Source: a virus | Length of the DNA stretch: 37,459 nt | IMG/VR virus record: IMGVR_UViG_3300029258_002352 | Coordinates: 1-37,459 of that record | Direction: 5' to 3' (one strand) | Shown: positions 17,046 through 29,309 of the stretch, one piece after another | How positions within the stretch are numbered: position 1 is the first letter of the stretch | How the letters are laid out: every line of letters begins with the position of its first letter | Translations under genes and position numbers: made by a program | The notes under the pieces: generated by a model | Database searches by the model: none | Seen by the model: only the letters and a program-made list of their open reading frames with translations | What the model was told of the DNA's origin: nothing

Positions 17046-18404
17046 CTAACTCATTGTGGCGAACGTGTAGCCGCTGGCCACAAGACCGTCCGTGATGGCG
17101 CGGCCCAACTTCACCAGCCGGCGCCCACGTGTGCTCCCTACCTCGGCGCCGAACTCGGAGGCCACGCTCTTCAGCGTGCCGCGGCCCCCATCGCGCAGGG
17201 CGGTGATGATGGACGCCACGATCTCCTGTTCACTCCATTGCTCTGCGGTGTTTCCGGCGTGGCGTCCGTTGCCGCCGTCCATATCCTGGCCAATGTCGCA
17301 CGGGTCGTAATCTGGCCAGGCGTCGAATCGCCATTGGCCAGCGCGACCGTTGGCGCGTTCGAGCGCGGCGTCAACGTCGGACTGGTCAACGAAGGCGCCC
17401 TGGACCCGGTGAACCTGACCGGGTCCAACCACGAAGCTGTCCCCGGCGCCCTGGAGTTTATCGGCCCTGGGGGAGTTGCCTCCGACGGCGACCCGCGAGG
17501 CCTCGTAGTCGGACACCAGGAATGCCTGTTTGCCGACGACATTGCGCTTCACAGAAGGATCGCCGAACATATCCACGCTGGGGTGCTGCGTGGACATCAG
17601 CAGATGGACGCGCGCGGCCCGGCCCTGGGCGGTCAGTTTCCGCAGCAGGCCGACGATCGCCGGGTCCTGCGTGTACTCCTGAAACTCATCGATCACGAGG
17701 ACCAGCCGCCCGGCCTGCTCTCCCTGGTATCGGCGTTTCATCTCGACGCAGCACCAGGCCATCGCCCGGCGCACTTGGTCGAATTCGACCGCCACGGGAC
17801 CGACGACGCCAGGCAGACGCGCCAGCGCCTGGAGAGATTCCCCATACTTTCCATCGATCAACACGATCGTGTTATCCTGGCGCTCGCTGAGCTGAAGGAT
17901 GGCGTTTTGGAGCGCAACGCTCTTACCCGCGCCGGTCGTGCCCGCCATCAGATAGTGAGGTGTGCTATCGTCCAGGTGAGGGACGACGACGGCTCCGGTC
18001 TCGGACTTGCCGGCGATCCAGGCGTTAGGATCCTCCGGCTTGTGGGGGATCTCCCGCAGGCGGATGACCCGCTGGGCCAGGTTCTCTGGCCAGGCAGCTT
18101 CGATCCGCAAACAGCGGCCGTGCATGTAGCACTGTGGGTCGCCGGCGAAGTCCCAGGGGATTGCGCGGCGCAACTTCGCGCAATCATCGGCCGCGAGCGC
18201 TTTGCGGATTCGGCCCGCGTTCAGGCCGGCCAGGATCTCGATTGCGCCCGCTCTGGGGCCGCTGATGGTGATGCACTGCTCAACGATGGACGGCTTGCCG
18301 CGCGTCCATTGGCCGCGCCGGACAGATTCCATCACGTACAGCGCCAGTTGGTCAAGGTGCCGTTGGCGTGCCCGCTCCAGTGCCGTAGCTCGTTTCACGC
18401 TCAT
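17046..18404 (-). CDS. FtsK/SpoIIIE-like DNA translocase
   Basis: ATG at 18404 is chosen for its TTGGAGGTAAGAGG ribosome site. The product is about 452 residues. A helical N-terminal domain is followed by a RecA-like motor: Walker A AGTTGAGKS (154-162), Walker B LVLVIDE (234-240) and sensor STQHPS (271-276). The C-terminal about 65 residues (SEQEIVASIITALRDGG onward) look like a winged helix, as in FtsK gamma or TraB DNA-recognition domains. Unlike FtsK it has no membrane helices. Such motors pump double-stranded DNA. Relatives occur in actinobacterial conjugative elements (TraB) and in some phages. Which role applies here is open. Confidence 0.85.
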   Translation of the reverse strand: MSVKRATALERARQRHLDQLALYVMESVRRGQWTRGKPSIVEQCITISGPRAGAIEILAGLNAGRIRKALAADDCAKLRRAIPWDFAGDPQCYMHGRCLRIEAAWPENLAQRVIRLREIPHKPEDPNAWIAGKSETGAVVVPHLDDSTPHYLMAGTTGAGKSVALQNAILQLSERQDNTIVLIDGKYGESLQALARLPGVVGPVAVEFDQVRRAMAWCCVEMKRRYQGEQAGRLVLVIDEFQEYTQDPAIVGLLRKLTAQGRAARVHLLMSTQHPSVDMFGDPSVKRNVVGKQAFLVSDYEASRVAVGGNSPRADKLQGAGDSFVVGPGQVHRVQGAFVDQSDVDAALERANGRAGQWRFDAWPDYDPCDIGQDMDGGNGRHAGNTAEQWSEQEIVASIITALRDGGRGTLKSVASEFGAEVGSTRGRRLVKLGRAITDGLVASGYTFATMS

Positions 18405-18424
18405 TCCTCTTACCTCCAACCCGC

Positions 18425-18841
18425 CTATGTTCCTGTTATGTAGCACCGCCGCGACGGCTCGCACATACCTGTGCAATTTTCAAGTTCGGCTTCCGCCAGG
18501 GCCTCGTCGGCCCGGCGGCGCATTGCCGGCTTGCGCGATTCGATCCAGGCCAGGCCGGCCTGGTATTCGGCTTCCCAGGCTGCGGGTGATATGACCTCGA
18601 CCTGCACGTCGGCTTGCTGCCGGCTGAATCGATTTGCCGGCAGGGCTTGTGTTTGCTCGATTTGCACCGGTCCGGCTTGCTCAACCTGGTGCACCATCTG
18701 GCCCGGCTCAGTCCGTGCCAGAAAAGCGCCCGCCCGTCGTGCCAATTCCCTATGCTCCTGGTACATCTGGCCCAGGGTCGCCCCCAGGTCAAGCGCAGCC
18801 ATCGCCCACGTTTCCCGTGTGGTTGCCAGTTTATCGCCCAT
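18425..18841 (-). CDS. Hypothetical protein upstream of FtsK-like gene
   Basis: This gene encodes 138 residues; the ATG overlaps the end of the upstream gene and has GGAGGTGATC upstream. It is mostly helical by composition, with ALDLGATLGQMYQEHREL near the N-terminus and a charged WIESRKPAMRRRADEALAEA helix near 98-117. Cysteines appear only at the end (NCTGMCEPSRRC). The overlapping frame over the same stretch looks like a shadow. No family recognised. Confidence 0.6.
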   Translation of the reverse strand: MGDKLATTRETWAMAALDLGATLGQMYQEHRELARRAGAFLARTEPGQMVHQVEQAGPVQIEQTQALPANRFSRQQADVQVEVISPAAWEAEYQAGLAWIESRKPAMRRRADEALAEAELENCTGMCEPSRRCYITGT

Positions 18842-21318: not shown

Positions 21319-22140
21319 TTAGAATCCAGGCATTACCATCTGGCAATGCGAATCCAGCCGCGGCAGGATGGTTTTATGCCAGTAGAATTTGGCCAACCGC
21401 CGCGTGTACGTTGAATACGTCTCTCCTGGTCTGTGCAAACATTCCTCCGGCCTGTCCATGTCCTTCTGCCCACGGCCCCAGTTCCATGCGTACGAATCCC
21501 ACGACCGGATCAGCCAGGATACGCGGGGATCGTCCAAGGCCTGGACGTGCAGGCCGAATCCGTGATACACCACGCCTGGCAGTTGAGAGCCATAGAAGCG
21601 AATGACGGACCGGGCCTCTTTCGGGTTTCTGCTACAAATTGAGCCGATGCCCGCGTAATCGGGCAACAGGAGGCCCTCTTTGGCGCGTAGGGCTAAATCA
21701 AGACGCCGCTCATCCCGCGTGTTCCCTTGGAGCACGGGCAACCAAGGGAGGCGCGGGTCCGCTTCGTGACACGCGATCTCGTTAGAGATCGTGGCCTCGA
21801 TCCGCTCGCGGTTGGTGGGATAGATGCCCCGATTCACCTCGCGCTCGCAGGCATAATCCATTGTGGCGCAGAAATCGAGCGGAACATCGCGCGATTCCTC
21901 GCGGATGAAGTCGGCGTATTGTTTCACGGTCCACGGGTAGCGACCCCAGCGTTTCGCGGCGGTAAAGCCGCCCGAATCGATGGCGATGGTGGCAACGTTA
22001 CCAGGCGGGCGGCGCACGCGAAAGCGGGCGCGCTCGTCATCCCAATGTGCTGAGGCAACGAGCATGATGTGGCAGTCGTTGAGCAGGCGACCGCGGATGA
22101 GATCGCCAGGATGAACGGTAAAGTAGAAGCGGGTGGTCAT
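21319..22140 (-). CDS. DpdA/TGT-like base-exchange enzyme (deazapurine DNA modification family)
   Basis: ATG at 22140 overlaps the preceding stop (TGATG). The product is 273 residues. IDSGGFT (D55) corresponds to the conserved DSGGFQ acid/base motif of tRNA-guanine transglycosylases. VLQGN (137-140) and GIGSICSRN follow, and HGFGLHVQAL with SWDSYAW places D215 where the catalytic nucleophile should be. This pattern is that of the phage DpdA-like/DUF7221 family, which swaps guanine for a 7-deazaguanine in DNA (or in tRNA). The usual TGT zinc cluster is not evident. Two DNA methyltransferase genes precede it in the operon, which favours DNA as substrate. No preQ0-synthesis genes are in the window, so the host or the missing part would supply the base. 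Confidence 0.75.
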   Translation of the reverse strand: MTTRFYFTVHPGDLIRGRLLNDCHIMLVASAHWDDERARFRVRRPPGNVATIAIDSGGFTAAKRWGRYPWTVKQYADFIREESRDVPLDFCATMDYACEREVNRGIYPTNRERIEATISNEIACHEADPRLPWLPVLQGNTRDERRLDLALRAKEGLLLPDYAGIGSICSRNPKEARSVIRFYGSQLPGVVYHGFGLHVQALDDPRVSWLIRSWDSYAWNWGRGQKDMDRPEECLHRPGETYSTYTRRLAKFYWHKTILPRLDSHCQMVMPGF

Positions 22141-22397
22141 CACAATATTCTCTCGTATCTCTGAAGGTGATCCCAAACCAGGAGCGGCACGTCGTCAACT
22201 GTGGTCAGTACCGCGCCTGGTTCTGTACTCTGCGTGACGCGCCACAACATTCTGCACAATGCCGGCAGTGATACTCCGGTCGGTTTTGATTCGAGGATCG
22301 CCATCATTCGCGCGACCTCATAGTGCCGTTGGCACATCGGCGGCTGGATGAATCCGAAGCCGACCGCGTCGTCGTCGCAGAACGTGCACCTGGTCAT
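22140..22397 (-). CDS. Small hypothetical protein with zinc-like N-terminus
   Basis: ATG at 22397 overlaps the stop of the methyltransferase (ATGA); a longer frame would run through the methyltransferase gene and is a shadow. The protein is about 85 residues. It starts MTRCTFCDDDAVGFGFIQPP, then MCQRHYEVARMM, so Cys4, Cys7, Cys22 and His25 could bind one zinc ion. The rest is helical. It is coupled to both the cytosine methyltransferase and the DpdA-like gene and may be a helper or regulator of modification. Confidence 0.6.
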   Translation of the reverse strand: MTRCTFCDDDAVGFGFIQPPMCQRHYEVARMMAILESKPTGVSLPALCRMLWRVTQSTEPGAVLTTVDDVPLLVWDHLQRYERIL

Positions 22398-23086
22398 CCG
22401 GTTACCTTTCCCTTGTTGTGAAGGTATTCCATCAACTGTCTTCCAATGTACTCTGTGTACGCGGGTGGAATGGCTTGTGTGATCTCCTCCCAATCCATCC
22501 AATCTATGTCCATCGCATCGCGCGCCTCCTCCAGTGAGGAGGCGACGCGGGTCAGCCGGTGCTGTGGATAGCTGACCCGCCGGCCGTCCGGTCTGGAACC
22601 ATAGACGCCAATGCTGTAGTCGTTCGAGTAATGAGAACACGGCGGTGCAAAGAGGAGTACAGAGCTTTCAAAGTGGCGATGGCGTGCGAGATGCTCAAGC
22701 CCCAGTGACGCTCCGCACAGTATTATCACTGTATTCAACGGGCTTCCCTGTACGTTCTCGATCACCCAGGGTTTTCCCGTGTCTATGAGTGCGCATCTGG
22801 TGGCGGCGATGAGATCGGGCGGATTGGGATTGCTGCGAATTCGGCCAAATCTGGAACGCGTGATCTTGCGCATTCCCGTATACCTCTGGCAAGGCGGACT
22901 GGCGTGTATCACTGAGTAGCGCGCGCTGTGCTCCGCGACGAATTCCAAAGCATCGGCCTGATGGAACTCGAACGGATAGTTCGGCTGGTCTTTGTGGTCC
23001 ACACCGACGACCTCAAATCCGGCACGATGGTATCCCATCGCTGCGCCCCCGGCTCCGCAAAATAAGTCCAGCAGCAGTGGTCTCAT
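22394..23086 (-). CDS. DNA (cytosine-5) methyltransferase
   Basis: ATG at 23086 is chosen because the motif I follows directly and GAGAGG lies upstream. The product is about 230 residues. Motif I DLFCGAGGAAMGY (7-19), motif IV SPPCQ with nucleophile C66, motif VI IENVQG (109-114), an RHRHFES segment (about 135-141) like motif VIII, and AIPPAYTEYIGRQL (motif X) are all visible. It is short for the family and has only a small target-recognition region, like many phage solitary enzymes. It methylates C5 of cytosine in DNA, probably for protection from host restriction. It overlaps the upstream amino-methyltransferase by 4 bases. Confidence 0.88.
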   Translation of the reverse strand: MRPLLLDLFCGAGGAAMGYHRAGFEVVGVDHKDQPNYPFEFHQADALEFVAEHSARYSVIHASPPCQRYTGMRKITRSRFGRIRSNPNPPDLIAATRCALIDTGKPWVIENVQGSPLNTVIILCGASLGLEHLARHRHFESSVLLFAPPCSHYSNDYSIGVYGSRPDGRRVSYPQHRLTRVASSLEEARDAMDIDWMDWEEITQAIPPAYTEYIGRQLMEYLHNKGKVTG

Positions 23087-24309
23087 CCCATCCTCTCCGT
23101 GTACCAGGCCAGCTTCTGGCCCAGATTCCGATGTGCGGTGGGGATGGTGGCCACTGCACCAAATGTGTTTGCGCGCTGCTGCAGGTAGCGCGCGTAGCGG
23201 TCGGTGACGTGAAGCTCGATCTGATCGCCGGCAACCAACCCGAATTTGGCCACCAGGTCGCGCACGATCCCGTAGGACCAGGAGCGGCGGGCGCGGGCCT
23301 TGGCCGGATGTGTGCCGGTCCAGACGATGTCGGGCTCGTCGACCGGGGGGAACAGGCCGATGGAATCCAGGCACAGGAGCCGATCGGGCTGCTGCTGAGC
23401 GCAGTAGGTGACTTGCTTGTCAAACAGGATCCGACCAGGTGACGAAGCGCCGTTTGGCACCTCGATGACGAAGAACCGTTTCTCCCCAGGCCCCGGACCA
23501 TCTGCCTTTTTGAGCACCAGGGCGGTCTCGACGGCGATCATCGGGTAGTCGTCGATATTCTTGCTGTGGATGCGTCGCCAGCGACTCGGGATGGTCTTCC
23601 GATCGTGCGTCGCCACGATCTTAAAGCCATTGGCAGCGACCAAAGCGCGCGTGTCCTCGGTCACCGGAACGATTCGGCTTTTGCGGATCTTGTTCCCCAG
23701 GATCAAGATGAGTTTCCCACCCGGGCGCAGGATACGCCTGCACTCCCGGTAGACGCCGCGCATCGCATGCAGGTAGTCGTCGTAGATGTGGATGTTGCCG
23801 ATCTGCGCTGGATGGTCCCCGTATGAGAGGCCTTTTGGCCCCATGTGGCGACCGTCGAGGTAGTTGGCCTGCTTTCTATTCCAGTTGCTGAATAGGTCGA
23901 AGTAGGGCGGCGAGGTGACGATGGCGTCCAGGCTGTCATCCGGGACCGGCAGGCGGCCGGCATCCCACTGGCAGGTCAGGATCGGCGATACAAACATATG
24001 CCGGGTGCGGATCCGGAGCGCATTTCGGTTTAGGAGCCGGGACCAGTAGCCTTCGACGTCGCCGGCCAGCGTTGGGTGCTGGTTCAGGGCGGCGAGGAGG
24101 ATGGAGCCGGTGCCGGCCATCGGGTCGAGGACGGCGGATCCGGGGTCGGTGTGTTCGTTCAGGAGCCAGGCCAACCAGTTGAGGTTGAGCTTTGCCTTGT
24201 GTTCGAAGGTGCGTTCGGCGAAGCCGAGATAGCGACGCAGGTGGTGGTCGCGCGCGAAGGTCAAAGGCTCCTTGGGGCCCGGGCCCGGGTGGGAAACTTG
24301 GTTAAGCAT
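23083..24309 (-). CDS. DNA amino-methyltransferase (N4-cytosine/N6-adenine) with extra C-terminal domain
   Basis: This 408-residue protein has motif I LDPMAGTGS (61-69) and the catalytic SPPY (133-136), in the order motif I then IV. It also has LRPGGKLILILGNK and a helix-rich target region. SPPY is most common in N4-cytosine and N6-adenine enzymes; which base is modified cannot be read. After about residue 275 an extra about 130 residues (EKRFFVIEVPNG to the end) has no motif I know. It may be a target-recognition or second enzymatic domain. No restriction enzyme gene is next to it, so it appears to be a solitary protective enzyme. Confidence 0.85.
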   Translation of the reverse strand: MLNQVSHPGPGPKEPLTFARDHHLRRYLGFAERTFEHKAKLNLNWLAWLLNEHTDPGSAVLDPMAGTGSILLAALNQHPTLAGDVEGYWSRLLNRNALRIRTRHMFVSPILTCQWDAGRLPVPDDSLDAIVTSPPYFDLFSNWNRKQANYLDGRHMGPKGLSYGDHPAQIGNIHIYDDYLHAMRGVYRECRRILRPGGKLILILGNKIRKSRIVPVTEDTRALVAANGFKIVATHDRKTIPSRWRRIHSKNIDDYPMIAVETALVLKKADGPGPGEKRFFVIEVPNGASSPGRILFDKQVTYCAQQQPDRLLCLDSIGLFPPVDEPDIVWTGTHPAKARARRSWSYGIVRDLVAKFGLVAGDQIELHVTDRYARYLQQRANTFGAVATIPTAHRNLGQKLAWYTERMG

Positions 24310-25643: not shown

Positions 25644-25964
25644 CTACCTCCGAATCTCGTTGGCGTCGTGGTCCAGGCACTCGCGCCGTTGTTGCGCGCG
25701 CGCAATGCAGTGCCGGGAGATGGAGCCGATGATCATCGGGGTCCCGCTGGCGGCGAAACAGGCCAGCGTCCAGATGACCGGCTCTAGGCCGACGATGAAG
25801 GCGGCTCCGGCCAGGGTGACGGCACAGCCCAGGGCGACGATCAGGCCCATGTAGCCGCGGTCGTGGCCCTGCCGTTCGAGCGATTCGACCCAGCGGTTGT
25901 AGAAGTAGCCAAAGACCGCGAGGGTCACAAATATGAGCAAGCAGTTTGAGCAGTTTAAGTGCAT
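25644..25964 (-). CDS. Small multi-helix membrane protein
   Basis: This 106-residue protein has three likely membrane helices: NCLLIFVTLAVFGYFY (about 7-22), GYMGLIVALGCAVTLAGAAF (about 37-56) and VIWTLACFAASGTPMIIG (about 63-80). A basic cytosolic tail with two cysteines follows. It is the first gene downstream of the iteron region in the leftward direction and is followed two bases later by another membrane protein. Function unknown; superinfection exclusion is one option for such early membrane proteins. Confidence 0.65.
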   Translation of the reverse strand: MHLNCSNCLLIFVTLAVFGYFYNRWVESLERQGHDRGYMGLIVALGCAVTLAGAAFIVGLEPVIWTLACFAASGTPMIIGSISRHCIARAQQRRECLDHDANEIRR

Positions 25965-26032
25965 TTTGGTCTCTTTTTATATAGATCAAGATCACGTCTT
26001 TGAGTTTAGGAGTCTAAGAGTCTTTCATGTTA
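25965..26032. other. AT-rich stretch next to iterons (possible unwinding region)
   Basis: This non-coding segment is noticeably richer in A and T than its surroundings and contains TTTTTATATAGAT and the near-repeats GAGTCTAA and GAGTCTTT. Lying directly beside the iterons and the initiator gene, it would suit a DNA-unwinding element. That is inference. Confidence 0.5.
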
Positions 26033-26137
26033 TGCACCGTGCATATGCCCCATCTGCACCGTGCATATGCCCCATCTGCACCGTGCATATGCCCCATCTG
26101 CACCGTGCATATGCCCCATCTGCACCGTGCATATGCC
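26033..26137. repeat. 22-bp iterons, probable replication origin
   Basis: Four exact copies of a 22-base unit (start TGCACCGTGCATATGCCCCA, end TC) lie head to tail at 26033, 26055, 26077 and 26099. A fifth, partial copy of 17 bases starts at 26121. Each contains the inverted repeats TGCAC-C-GTGCA and GCATATGC. A 22-base spacing is two helical turns, so binding sites face one side of the DNA. They lie directly after the initiator gene and beside an AT-rich stretch, the usual make-up of an iteron origin. Confidence 0.8.
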
Positions 26138-27012
26138 TATTCCTCCTCCCTCAGCAGACTTGGAAGGCTCAATTGCTGCCATTGCTCAAACTCCAGCCGA
26201 CAACGCTCGATCTCCCTGCCGTGCCTCTCCTGAAGCCGTTCGCTCAATTTGGCGATTTGGCCGGGCGTGAGCAACGGGAGCTTATCAAGGACCCTAAAAT
26301 GGTAGATCGTATCCCGTCCGGTCCCAATAACCTGCGGCCAAACAATTCGCTCGTTTTCAAGGATCTCCAGGGCTCCCACTGTGCGTTTTCGGTGGTGCTT
26401 TTCCCCGTGTGCGTTACGGCCCAGGATCTTGTACCTGTTGCCCTTGGCTACCATATCAGCGAGGGTGTATATGCTGGGCCAGTGCGGTCGTCCTTTCTCT
26501 GCCCAGGCTGCGGGGAACGACCGCAGGGTATTCCATAGGCAGAATGCGACGCCAGTGTTAATGGCGCCAGTCTCTCGCTCGCGGGCGGCCAAGTACGGCT
26601 GCCAATACTGCCAGGCGTAATTAGAGGTCATCACGAAGCCAGCCGTGAGCGGATCGAAGTTGACCAGCTCGATGGCGATGCGGGAATCCGGCCGGATGTC
26701 GGCCTCGGTGGGATCGCCGTCGCCGTCGTCGTCGTCTTCATCGTCGAGCGAAGGCAGGTGACCGTTGCCGGCGACGAACGTCACCTTGACCTGCCGGCCA
26801 GTGACGCGAGCCGCCGTCCGCAGGATGGTGTCCCGAAGGCGGGTATTCAACCAATCGACGGCGTACTTGTTGCGTACGGCGACGACGAGCTGATCACCAT
26901 CCTGGCTGATGAGCCGGGAGTCGTGCAGCAGGTTAATGAACGTGGCCTCGGTCATCTGCATGGCCAAGTTTGGGAGGATTTCTTTGCTCCAAATATCTTC
27001 GCTTGTGTTCAT
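26137..27012 (-). CDS. Replication initiator with DnaA N-terminal-like domain
   Basis: This is a 291-residue protein. Residues about 5-83 match DnaA domain I: SKEILPNLAMQMTEATFINL, LVVAVRNKYAVDWLNTRL and QVKVTFVAG. An acidic linker DDEDDDDGDGD (about 91-101) leads to a helical domain with NYAWQYWQPYL, then VGALEILENERIVW, likely a winged helix that binds the iterons next door. There is no ATPase domain, so it is an adaptor-type Rep and not DnaA itself. Domain I normally recruits the host helicase. It is the first gene of the leftward operon, and a TATA-rich segment (TTATATA) lies about 15 bases upstream of the ATG. Confidence 0.78.
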   Translation of the reverse strand: MNTSEDIWSKEILPNLAMQMTEATFINLLHDSRLISQDGDQLVVAVRNKYAVDWLNTRLRDTILRTAARVTGRQVKVTFVAGNGHLPSLDDEDDDDGDGDPTEADIRPDSRIAIELVNFDPLTAGFVMTSNYAWQYWQPYLAARERETGAINTGVAFCLWNTLRSFPAAWAEKGRPHWPSIYTLADMVAKGNRYKILGRNAHGEKHHRKRTVGALEILENERIVWPQVIGTGRDTIYHFRVLDKLPLLTPGQIAKLSERLQERHGREIERCRLEFEQWQQLSLPSLLREEE

Positions 27013-27085
27013 ATTGCCTCGGGTATATAATGGGGGCTGGAAGGCGGGCAGCCTGGGGAGGCAATCGGCCCACCTTCCGGCCCAC

Positions 27086-27115
27086 CGGTCACGTGCGCTC
27101 CCGCGTGCGTGACCG
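27086..27115. promoter_or_regulatory. Inverted repeat in the divergent control region
   Basis: CGGTCACG (27086-27093) and CGTGACCG (27108-27115) are perfect 8-bp arms with 14 bases between. This lies in the 144-base gap between the divergent initiator and integrase genes and may be an operator. Confidence 0.5.
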
Positions 27116-27135
27116 TCTTCATTGTCCGTTCAAGT

Positions 27136-27153
27136 TTAGAACGGGGGTTCTAA
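27136..27153. promoter_or_regulatory. Operator-like palindrome, GAAC-N4-GTTC core
   Basis: TTAGAAC-GGGG-GTTCTAA has perfect 7-bp arms and ends three bases before the integrase GTG. Its core fits the Gram-positive-type LexA box (GAAC-N4-GTTC). It could place the integrase, and perhaps the divergent initiator, under SOS or phage repressor control. Confidence 0.55.
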
Positions 27154-27156
27154 GTA

Positions 27157-28083
27157 GTGAAACTTTCCGAGGCACTACGGGAATTTGACACCGCGCTGGT
27201 GGGCAACGTAGCTGATAGCACGCGGTCGTGGTACAGCAGGCGGCTGGGTGCGCTGGTGGAGTTCGTTGGCGACGTCGAGATCGAGGAGCTGACGATCTCC
27301 GATCTGCGGCGCTGGCGGGCGTCGTTGATCGAGCGCGACGCCCGCTGGACAGATCATCCCACGCGCCCGGAGGAGGAGGGTGGGCTTTCGCCCTGGACGG
27401 TGCGCGGATACATCCGCGCCGTCCGCGCGTTCTGCAACTGGCTGGTGCACGAGGGCTTATTGGTCAGCAGCCCGGCTGCCAGGCTCAGGCTCCCGCCCAA
27501 GCCCCCGAACCCCCCGAAGGCGGTACGTCCTCAAGATGTGGTAGCGATGTTGGAAGTGGCGGACGCGCGCGATCGAGCGATCGTGTGCGTGCTGGCCGCT
27601 ACGGGGTGCAGGGTGGGCGGGTTGTGTGATCTGCGCCTATCCGACCTGGACCTGAATCACCAGCCGGCCAGGGCGATGGTGCGAGAGAAGGGTCGTGGGG
27701 GGAAGAAATCCCGACTGGTGTTTTTCGGGCCTCAAACGGTTGATGCTCTGCGGTCCTGGCTTGCGATCAGGCCGGAGATGGGCGGGGACGATCACATATT
27801 CCTGGGGCAGCGCGGGCCGCTGACGGAGGGCGGGATCTACCAGGTCCTACGCCGGCTGGCGAAGAAGGCGGGGGTGGAAGGACGATTCAATCCGCATGCC
27901 TTTCGCCACGCGTTTGCGCGGGGTGCGTTGGAGAACGGCGCCGACCTGGGTACGGTGAGCCAGCTTCTGGGCCACAGCAGCGTTCAGGTGACTGATGAGT
28001 TTTATGGCAGGTGGAGTGCAGATGAGCTGGGGCGGCGAAGTGAGAAGTACGGGTGGTTCGAGAAGTCAGCAGAGGATTTCTAG
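27157..28083 (+). CDS. int: Tyrosine recombinase (phage integrase)
   Basis: This is a 308-residue protein. The N-terminal SAM-like core-binding domain (about 1-105) includes STRSWYSRRLGALVEF and GYIRAVRAFCNWLVHEG. The catalytic domain holds R152 (ATGCRVGGL), a lysine near 178 (EKGRGGKKSR), H247-x2-R250 (HAFRHAF), H273 (LLGHSSVQVT) and the nucleophile Y283 (EFYGRW), the complete set. It is closest in style to XerC/XerD-like integrases. The GTG start lies three bases from an operator-like palindrome, with no clear ribosome site. The attP site follows 30 bases after the stop. Confidence 0.93.
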   Translation: MKLSEALREFDTALVGNVADSTRSWYSRRLGALVEFVGDVEIEELTISDLRRWRASLIERDARWTDHPTRPEEEGGLSPWTVRGYIRAVRAFCNWLVHEGLLVSSPAARLRLPPKPPNPPKAVRPQDVVAMLEVADARDRAIVCVLAATGCRVGGLCDLRLSDLDLNHQPARAMVREKGRGGKKSRLVFFGPQTVDALRSWLAIRPEMGGDDHIFLGQRGPLTEGGIYQVLRRLAKKAGVEGRFNPHAFRHAFARGALENGADLGTVSQLLGHSSVQVTDEFYGRWSADELGRRSEKYGWFEKSAEDF

Positions 28084-28111: not shown

Positions 28112-28162
28112 AAAGGACTCATAAGCCCTTGGTTGGCAGTTCAAATCTGCCCGTCGCCACTG
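28112..28162 (+). other. attP: attP: 3' half of a tRNA(CAU) gene
   Basis: The sequence runs from an anticodon loop CTCATAA (28118-28124; anticodon CAT 28120-28122) through a short variable loop. A perfect T arm follows, GGCAG (28135-28139), loop TTCAAAT, CTGCC (28147-28151), then an acceptor strand CGTCGCC-A (28152-28159). The 5' half and its pairing are absent. This is the usual form of an attachment site inside a tRNA gene with crossover near the anticodon loop. The host target would be a tRNA with CAU anticodon (Met, fMet or Ile2). Phage genes on both sides show it is attP. Confidence 0.85.
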
Positions 28163-28261: not shown

Positions 28262-28456
28262 CTACTTGGTCGACTGATCTCGCATCTCTTCGAACTCTGT
28301 TACGTCAGACTCGGGTATGACATAGGGGCTATTCTTTCCCAAGCCAACCTTCCGAGCATTTGGGAAGTAGCCTTTCCGAATCCAACTGATCACAGTATTC
28401 CGGTGCACATCCAAGCGATCAGCGACTTCTGTCGTCGATAGATTCTCGATTTCCAT
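28262..28456 (-). CDS. Excisionase-like HTH DNA-binding protein
   Basis: ATG at 28456 has AAGGGG upstream; earlier in-frame starts overlap the promoter and are rejected. The protein is about 64 residues and consists of one MerR/excisionase-type helix-turn-helix: LSTTEVADRLDVHRNTVISW, then IRKGYFPNARKVG and a C-terminal PYVIPESDVTEFEE. This is the HTH_17 pattern. Its position beside attP and the integrase makes it a directionality factor (Xis) candidate; it might also be a small repressor. A good promoter with repeated sites lies just upstream. Confidence 0.75.
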   Translation of the reverse strand: MEIENLSTTEVADRLDVHRNTVISWIRKGYFPNARKVGLGKNSPYVIPESDVTEFEEMRDQSTK

Positions 28457-28480
28457 AGTGCCCCTTTCGTGACCATACAA

Positions 28481-28498
28481 AGTATACATAGTATACAT
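28481..28498. promoter_or_regulatory. Direct-repeat operator over the HTH gene promoter
   Basis: AGTATACAT occurs twice in tandem (28481-28489, 28490-28498), each with a palindromic GTATAC. The repeats cover the -10 box of the leftward promoter, suggesting autoregulation or repression. Confidence 0.6.
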
Positions 28499-29069: not shown

Positions 29070-29309
29070 TCATATCTCCTTTTCATTGAAAAACTCTTCA
29101 GCGGGCACAAACTCCACTCCCGCCGCTTCAGCCGCTGCTCGATCGCTGTCCCGGTCGCCCACAAAAATGGTGTCTGCCAGCGGATAGTCAAGCCGCCGCG
29201 CCAGCTCAGTGATCATCCCCGGCCCCGGCTTCCGTCGCTGGCTGACCTTCGCGTATTGCGCCCGTGCCCGCGGCCCCTTAGCCCGAGAATCGTAAGGGCA
29301 CACACTCAC
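29070..29309 (-). pseudogene. HAD phosphatase remnant (C-terminal half)
   Basis: From GTG at 29309 the product has 79 residues. CPYDSRAKG, QRRKPGPGMITEL (motif III lysine region) and IFVGDRDSDRAAAEAAGV (motif IV) match the histidinol-phosphatase/heptose-bisphosphatase type of HAD enzymes. The frame stays open upstream to about 29388 with further matching sequence (YRLAWDAAEKVGGVDAV). The DxD catalytic motif I and the TNQSG motif II are missing, and an unrelated gene occupies that place. It is therefore most likely a truncated remnant, inactive on its own. Confidence 0.6.

Follow-up and report, generated by a model that had tools for sequence, protein, structure and literature searches.

A predicted replication origin and DnaA domain I-containing initiator in a temperate phage of Chloroflexota

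Introduction

Phage lambda replicates by a theta mechanism with the host helicase, and its iterons lie within gene O (PMC7466680). The O protein is a winged-helix-type initiator that acts through P, a distinct helicase loader, and its several clustered iterons adjoin an AT-rich tract. Iteron plasmids (F RepE, P1 RepA, R6K pi, RK2 TrfA) have tandem iterons, usually in front of rep, together with an AT-rich unwinding region, a twin winged-helix Rep, and DnaA boxes with a need for host DnaA. At oriC, repeated initiator sites (DnaA boxes) lie by an AT-rich region, and DnaA contains the AAA+ domain III and domain IV in addition to domain I. Domain I of E. coli DnaA binds DnaB via Glu21/Phe46 and is required for helicase loading (PMC5448010). 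A further group of initiators is present in Firmicutes (plasmid pTHECO01, phage Jenst), where they are annotated as 'DnaA N-terminal domain-containing protein' or, in PHROG 26369, as 'replication initiation protein'; they have a winged helix, a C-terminal DnaA domain I, and palindromic sites, spaced by about 22 bp, that adjoin the gene or lie within it. Searches of the literature outside subscription journals find no paper on DnaA_N-winged-helix initiators, and literature searches find no characterised replication system for phages of Chloroflexota.

Here we describe a locus at 26.0 kb in a linear IMG/VR record of 37,459 bases, referred to as the window. Most probably it comprises the initiator gene of a temperate, integrating Chloroflexota phage and the origin at which the phage replicates, with replication predicted to be of the theta type and to use the host helicase via DnaA domain I. 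Initiators with iterons are a known class; what is new is the combination seen here and its recurrence. The window protein belongs with the DnaA_N plus winged-helix initiators, and we refer to it as a variant with reversed domain order because domain I is N-terminal here and C-terminal in the Firmicutes proteins and PHROG 26369. The winged helices are homologous, but the Firmicutes iterons are of the TCAAAATTTGA type and their domain I belongs to a different lineage, with 16-21% identity to that in the window.

The arrangement is closer to the lambda O plan than to that of iteron plasmids. It has the winged-helix-type initiator, clustered iterons and AT-rich tract of lambda, but the array starts at the stop codon instead of lying inside the gene (arrays in Jenst and in phage contigs L072/L073 are in-gene, as in lambda), and DnaA domain I would replace the loader contact. 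A search limited to IstB/DnaC-type loaders finds none in six phage contigs, which are incomplete. With the array outside the gene and no loader of this type seen, a lambda module proper was rejected. The original prediction likened the locus to an iteron plasmid, and the tandem iterons of similar length, the AT-rich region and the winged-helix initiator agree with that; the rest of the plan does not, as the iterons are behind rep, there is no DnaA box, and the protein has one winged helix plus DnaA domain I and no Pfam match to Rep_3. A Rep_3 iteron plasmid was rejected on these grounds. With DnaA at oriC the locus shares domain I, an expected helicase contact and repeated initiator sites by an AT-rich region, but it has no DnaA boxes, its sites are palindromic 22-mers, and domains III and IV are absent, so the protein was rejected as DnaA itself.

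Organization of the locus

Homologous loci are designated by number (L005 and so on), and the features of the window are as follows.

25644-25964, minus strand: small membrane protein, predicted by inspection of the sequence; next gene downstream
25954-26033, no strand: most AT-rich 80 bp of the contig, candidate unwinding element (AT scan)
25996-26030, minus strand: conserved block with 8-bp repeats (ACATGAAAGACTCTTAGACTCCTAAACTCAAAGAC; alignment with L005, TRF)
26030-26038, plus strand: single DnaA-box near-match, TTATGCACC (8/9 match)
26033-26137, no strand: iteron array, 22-bp units at 26033, 26055, 26077 and 26099 and a 17-nt fifth at 26121
26137-27012, minus strand: initiator (Rep) gene, 291 aa, DnaA domain I, acidic linker and winged helix (ORF, homologues)
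26278-26682, minus strand: winged-helix DNA-binding domain, about aa 111-245 (AlphaFold, HTH_36 in relatives, hhalign)
26770-27000, minus strand: DnaA domain I, aa 5-81 (Pfam DnaA_N, N-terminal part of NCBIfam TIGR00362, PDB 4tps)
27157-28083, plus strand: tyrosine integrase, divergent from rep (Pfam Phage_integrase, 4e-30)
28120-28159, plus strand: putative attP, 3' part of tRNA-Met (39/40 identity to a tRNA-Met gene)
28262-28498, minus strand: excisionase/MerR-like HTH_17 protein (Pfam)

The array consists of four exact copies of TGCACCGTGCATATGCCCCATC (26033-26120) followed by a fifth copy of 17 nt (26121-26137), and TRF reports it with period 22, 4.8 copies and 100% matches at a score of 210, the highest in the window. 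The 22-mer is absent from the rest of the record, and nothing elsewhere in the contig comes within six mismatches of the full unit. Every unit contains TGCAC-C-GTGCA (TGCACCGTGCA) overlapping the palindrome GCATATGC, and because the two overlap each unit forms one composite site; the fifth unit lacks only the spacer and keeps both palindromes, such that there are five intact sites. Sequence and TRF thus bear out the predicted four exact 22-base units and partial fifth with two inverted repeats each, as well as their position directly after the initiator gene, since the array touches the stop codon of the minus-strand ORF and is downstream of the gene, not inside it. No terminator-like site or Rfam family match is present at the array, and no sigma-70-like promoter match in 25800-27300.

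The AT-rich stretch described beside the repeats is also present, and is in fact the AT maximum of the contig: the most AT-rich 60-bp and 80-bp windows, starting at 25974 and 25954 respectively, are 69-70% AT against a mean of 38%, and adjoin the array. The 8-bp repeats beside the iterons are reported by TRF with period 8 at 26002-26023. Between the window and L005 this AT-rich block is better conserved than the iterons, which differ, and within it ACTTAAACACTTACC is common to L067 and L005; a DNA pattern search of viral contigs for the conserved block gives L005's own contig as the sole relevant match. The origin has no DnaA boxes other than the 8/9 match at 26030-26038, which is probably incidental. 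The downstream gene (25644-25964) is the same neighbour in L005, L067 and L008. GC skew, suggested as a check on a start at 26.0 kb, is uninformative, with no clear reversal at 26 kb and shifts that track gene direction.

The initiator protein

The window protein scores 20.5 bits (E 4e-4) against Pfam DnaA_N, under the curated cut-off of 24.6, and the L005 protein (56% identical) is above it at 39 bits (E 7e-10). Superposed on B. subtilis DnaA domain I (4tps), the domain I model gives a TM of 0.85 and rmsd of 1.1. Neither Pfam nor NCBIfam identifies an AAA+ or ATPase family in the window protein, and together these results corroborate the description of a DnaA domain I without its ATPase. Residue Y50 is a conserved aromatic at the place equivalent to E. 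coli Phe46 in the helicase-contact region, where NKYAVDWL in the window aligns with NAYAVDWLE in L005 and NEFARDWLE in B. subtilis DnaA. The window domain I is 47-48% identical to chloroflexotan DnaA, 45% or less to other phage initiators, and 16-21% to Firmicutes initiators, identities that would fit a domain I matched to the host helicase.

The winged helix is seen in an AlphaFold model built from eight phage homologues (mean pLDDT 75; three sequences left the C-terminal domain unresolved), which contains helices at 132-147, 155-173 and 181-188, a recognition region and a two-strand wing, forming one winged helix and not a twin. HTH_36 matches are weak in two relatives and are also found in Firmicutes homologues; the window protein has none of its own. 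A profile built from 13 relatives aligns to the HTH_36-containing domain of Firmicutes plasmid proteins with an hhalign probability of 98.9 and E of 2.7e-17. A PDB sequence search with the winged-helix profile finds nothing, and Foldseek with the winged helix gives no significant match.

Relatives and their arrays

Homologues of the initiator are present in IMG/VR phages (L005 56%, L007 50%, L067 46%, and L068-L071 about 30% identical) as well as in two genomes of the class to which the Anaerolinea sp. CH6 MAG belongs (L053, L054); L008, in the CH6 MAG itself, has only domain I in common with the window protein. INPHARED phages and PLSDB contain no close full-length homologue, the matches being to domain I of DnaA/DnaA_N proteins only. 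L061 and L064, with DnaA_N matches in short open frames, are truncated DnaA genes and were rejected as initiators.

The palindromic repeats of the relatives lie right after the stop codon or up to about 150 nt beyond it. The unit is GCATGGTGAGCAGCGCACCAGG in L005 (4.9 copies, period 22), AAGGGGCTTATGGCCGGGCCAC in L007 (period 22, with the contig end falling inside the array), GCCCTTATGGCGGGTACACAAG in L067 (three copies, 22-bp period), TGTCCTGGGACA in L053 (six copies), TTGTGCGCAGGCACAA in L068 (four), TTGTGAAATTTCACAA in L054 (four), TTGTGCAATTTCACAA in L069 (five), and a CGATCAAAAAATGATCG-type palindrome in L008 (four). L071 and L063 have two copies each, those of L071 following one small ORF, and L070 has no recognisable array behind the initiator gene. 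When near-palindromes that recur within 350 nt are counted (an earlier even-length 16-mer metric missed odd-centred units), at least three copies are present at 9 of 12 homologue loci and in 10 of 219 background windows taken from these loci. The p-value of this difference (Fisher, 4e-9) is descriptive only, since the counting scheme was devised with the first arrays already known. Among 12 initiators with a homologous winged helix, repeat units tend to be more alike where the winged helices are more nearly identical (Mantel Spearman r 0.44, p 0.001), a trend to be expected in part from the joint inheritance of adjacent DNA. Unit sequences differ strongly among relatives with about 25-69% winged-helix identity, and the palindromic architecture is kept.

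Proteins in which a homologous winged helix precedes DnaA domain I are found in CH6-MAG-class genomes (L055-L060) and in Firmicutes, where the winged-helix plus DnaA_N module is present on large plasmids. Eight copies of TCAAAATTTGA follow the stop codon in Thermobacillus composti pTHECO01 and ten in a plasmid of Paenibacillus urinalis, mostly spaced at 22-24 bp. Brevibacillus phage Jenst has seven copies of TCAAATTTTGA within the initiator gene, between its two domains, and ParM adjoins the gene; these plasmid members and Jenst show that the module can serve plasmids. In two phage contigs whose protein has a different HTH domain, L072 and L073, the stretch that codes for the linker contains four palindromes, and in-gene iterons occur in L072, L073 and L075 but not in the window. 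Where repeats are found they sit 3' of the sequence coding for the DNA-binding domain, whichever end carries domain I. In the swapped-order group of L056-L058 and L060 there is either no array or just a pair of distant copies, and these proteins are possibly domesticated or part of another element.

The in-gene palindromes of L072 give its DnaA_N protein a repeated peptide, SQI[HYC]DD, with a layout as in lambda O. L056, L057, L058 and L060 have a conserved gene after the initiator-like gene with a similar start (MRTLTxTxxAAQR-like).

Phage context and lifestyle

No capsid or protease gene is recognised in the contig, which is therefore probably incomplete. The bases at 28120-28159 match the 3' end of a tRNA-Met gene from one genome of the CH6-MAG class (Anaerolineae) at 39 of 40 positions. 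As judged from the sequence, the phage is temperate and integrates into the genome of a Chloroflexota host, probably in Anaerolineae, and the origin would serve its lytic replication. ParA (AAA_31) and ParB are absent from the window and from the L005, L067, L069 and L070 contigs. The proposal that the phage may replicate as a plasmid-like circle at some stage is not supported, given the tyrosine integrase, the tRNA-Met att site, the excisionase-like gene and the lack of ParA/ParB; a transient plasmid-like stage may occur. The window and five related phage contigs, all incomplete, have no match to DnaB_C, IstB/DnaC or DNA_pol_A, in agreement with the report that no helicase or polymerase gene is recognised in the window.

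A model for initiation, and alternatives

We infer binding, melting, helicase recruitment and direction as follows. The C-terminal winged helix would bind the five palindromic 22-bp sites, which are about two helical turns apart, so that bound initiators could align on one face of the DNA and together open the adjoining AT-rich 8-bp-repeat stretch. The arrayed copies of domain I would then dock DnaB of the host, in the way that DnaA recruits this helicase at oriC, and theta replication would start at about 26.0 kb. If domain I docks host DnaB, the phage would need no helicase or loader of its own. The role of domain I with DnaB in E. coli, the aromatic kept at Y50 and the lack of DnaB_C, IstB/DnaC and PolA matches in the six incomplete contigs make docking through domain I the most likely mechanism, and recruitment of host machinery in this way, as proposed originally, appears well supported by comparison. 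In favour of an origin are the array and AT maximum next to the gene, the arrays of differing sequence that accompany homologues in Chloroflexota and Firmicutes, and the iterons that co-vary with the winged helix; the GC skew, and the homologues that lack a recognisable array, count against it.

The array could instead be an operator at which a winged-helix regulator represses gene 25644-25964 or its own operon. The palindromic sites do separate rep from a following gene of the same orientation, winged helices are frequent in regulators, and lambdoid and plasmid initiators often both initiate and regulate. An operator is nonetheless unlikely: the array is behind rep and not at a rep promoter, the promoter search of the region being negative; in Jenst and L072/L073 the sites are inside the coding region; and a 22-bp spacing with up to ten copies exceeds usual repressor needs. 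We know of no ordinary repressor with a DnaA domain I. A prophage replicating as a plasmid from an iteron-plasmid origin is slightly more improbable. Tandem 22-bp iterons, and the occurrence of the module on large Firmicutes plasmids and beside ParM in Jenst, would suit it, but the integrase, tRNA-Met attP and excisionase-like gene, the missing par genes and DnaA box, and iterons behind the gene all argue otherwise.

Five direct repeats right downstream of repA in mycobacteriophages Miko and Rachaly have been assigned to parS (PMC7157519), and the position and copy number here are the same. A parS-like partition centromere is less probable still, as no ParA or ParB accompanies the array in the contigs searched and the iterons vary in step with the winged helix of the initiator itself; with an integrase and att site present, moreover, no prophage partition is needed. 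That the repeats are a functionless chance tandem expansion is barely credible: perfect units could be recent, but arrays in the same place in relatives, with palindromes kept through changes in sequence, speak strongly against it.

Implications of a predicted origin with a DnaA domain I initiator

If the locus is an origin as proposed, its initiator has the helicase-recruiting part of DnaA without the DnaA ATPase, separating two functions that are normally tied and making the sufficiency of domain I for DnaB recruitment testable. It would also provide a predicted origin for Chloroflexota phages, and a sequence rule for finding origins in related phages and plasmids, namely to look directly behind the winged-helix coding region. 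We give even chances to a broader reading, that DnaA domain I is a portable helicase-docking tag, joined by mobile elements to either end of a winged helix, in a widespread initiator class of Chloroflexota and Firmicutes elements. The winged helix would then retain palindromic iterons of its own, placed within the gene or immediately after it, and diverge together with them, domain I would follow the DnaA of the host phylum, and such initiators would bypass both DnaA and phage-encoded helicase loaders.

Other features of the genomes

The L071 contig has, alongside its DnaA_N initiator, a 787-aa open frame with a ParB_N domain (G402:C1:2047-2295). In the window, a DpdA-like protein (21319-22176, minus strand; Pfam DpdA, E 4.5e-13) suggests 7-deazaguanine modification of the phage DNA, and its gene adjoins C5 and N6/N4 DNA methyltransferases at 22394-24309. 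A 79-aa ORF at 29070-29309 (minus strand) matches only the C-terminal part of a HAD phosphatase and is a fragment or a stand-alone half. Between the portal and head-tail genes, at the contig edge (4-4556, plus strand), are a glycosyltransferase and a sulfotransferase identified by Pfam, with methyltransferase-like ORFs in the same cluster recognised by eye. An FtsK/SpoIIIE-like ATPase is encoded at 17046-18476 on the minus strand (Pfam, 5e-20), with homologues in L005 and L067.
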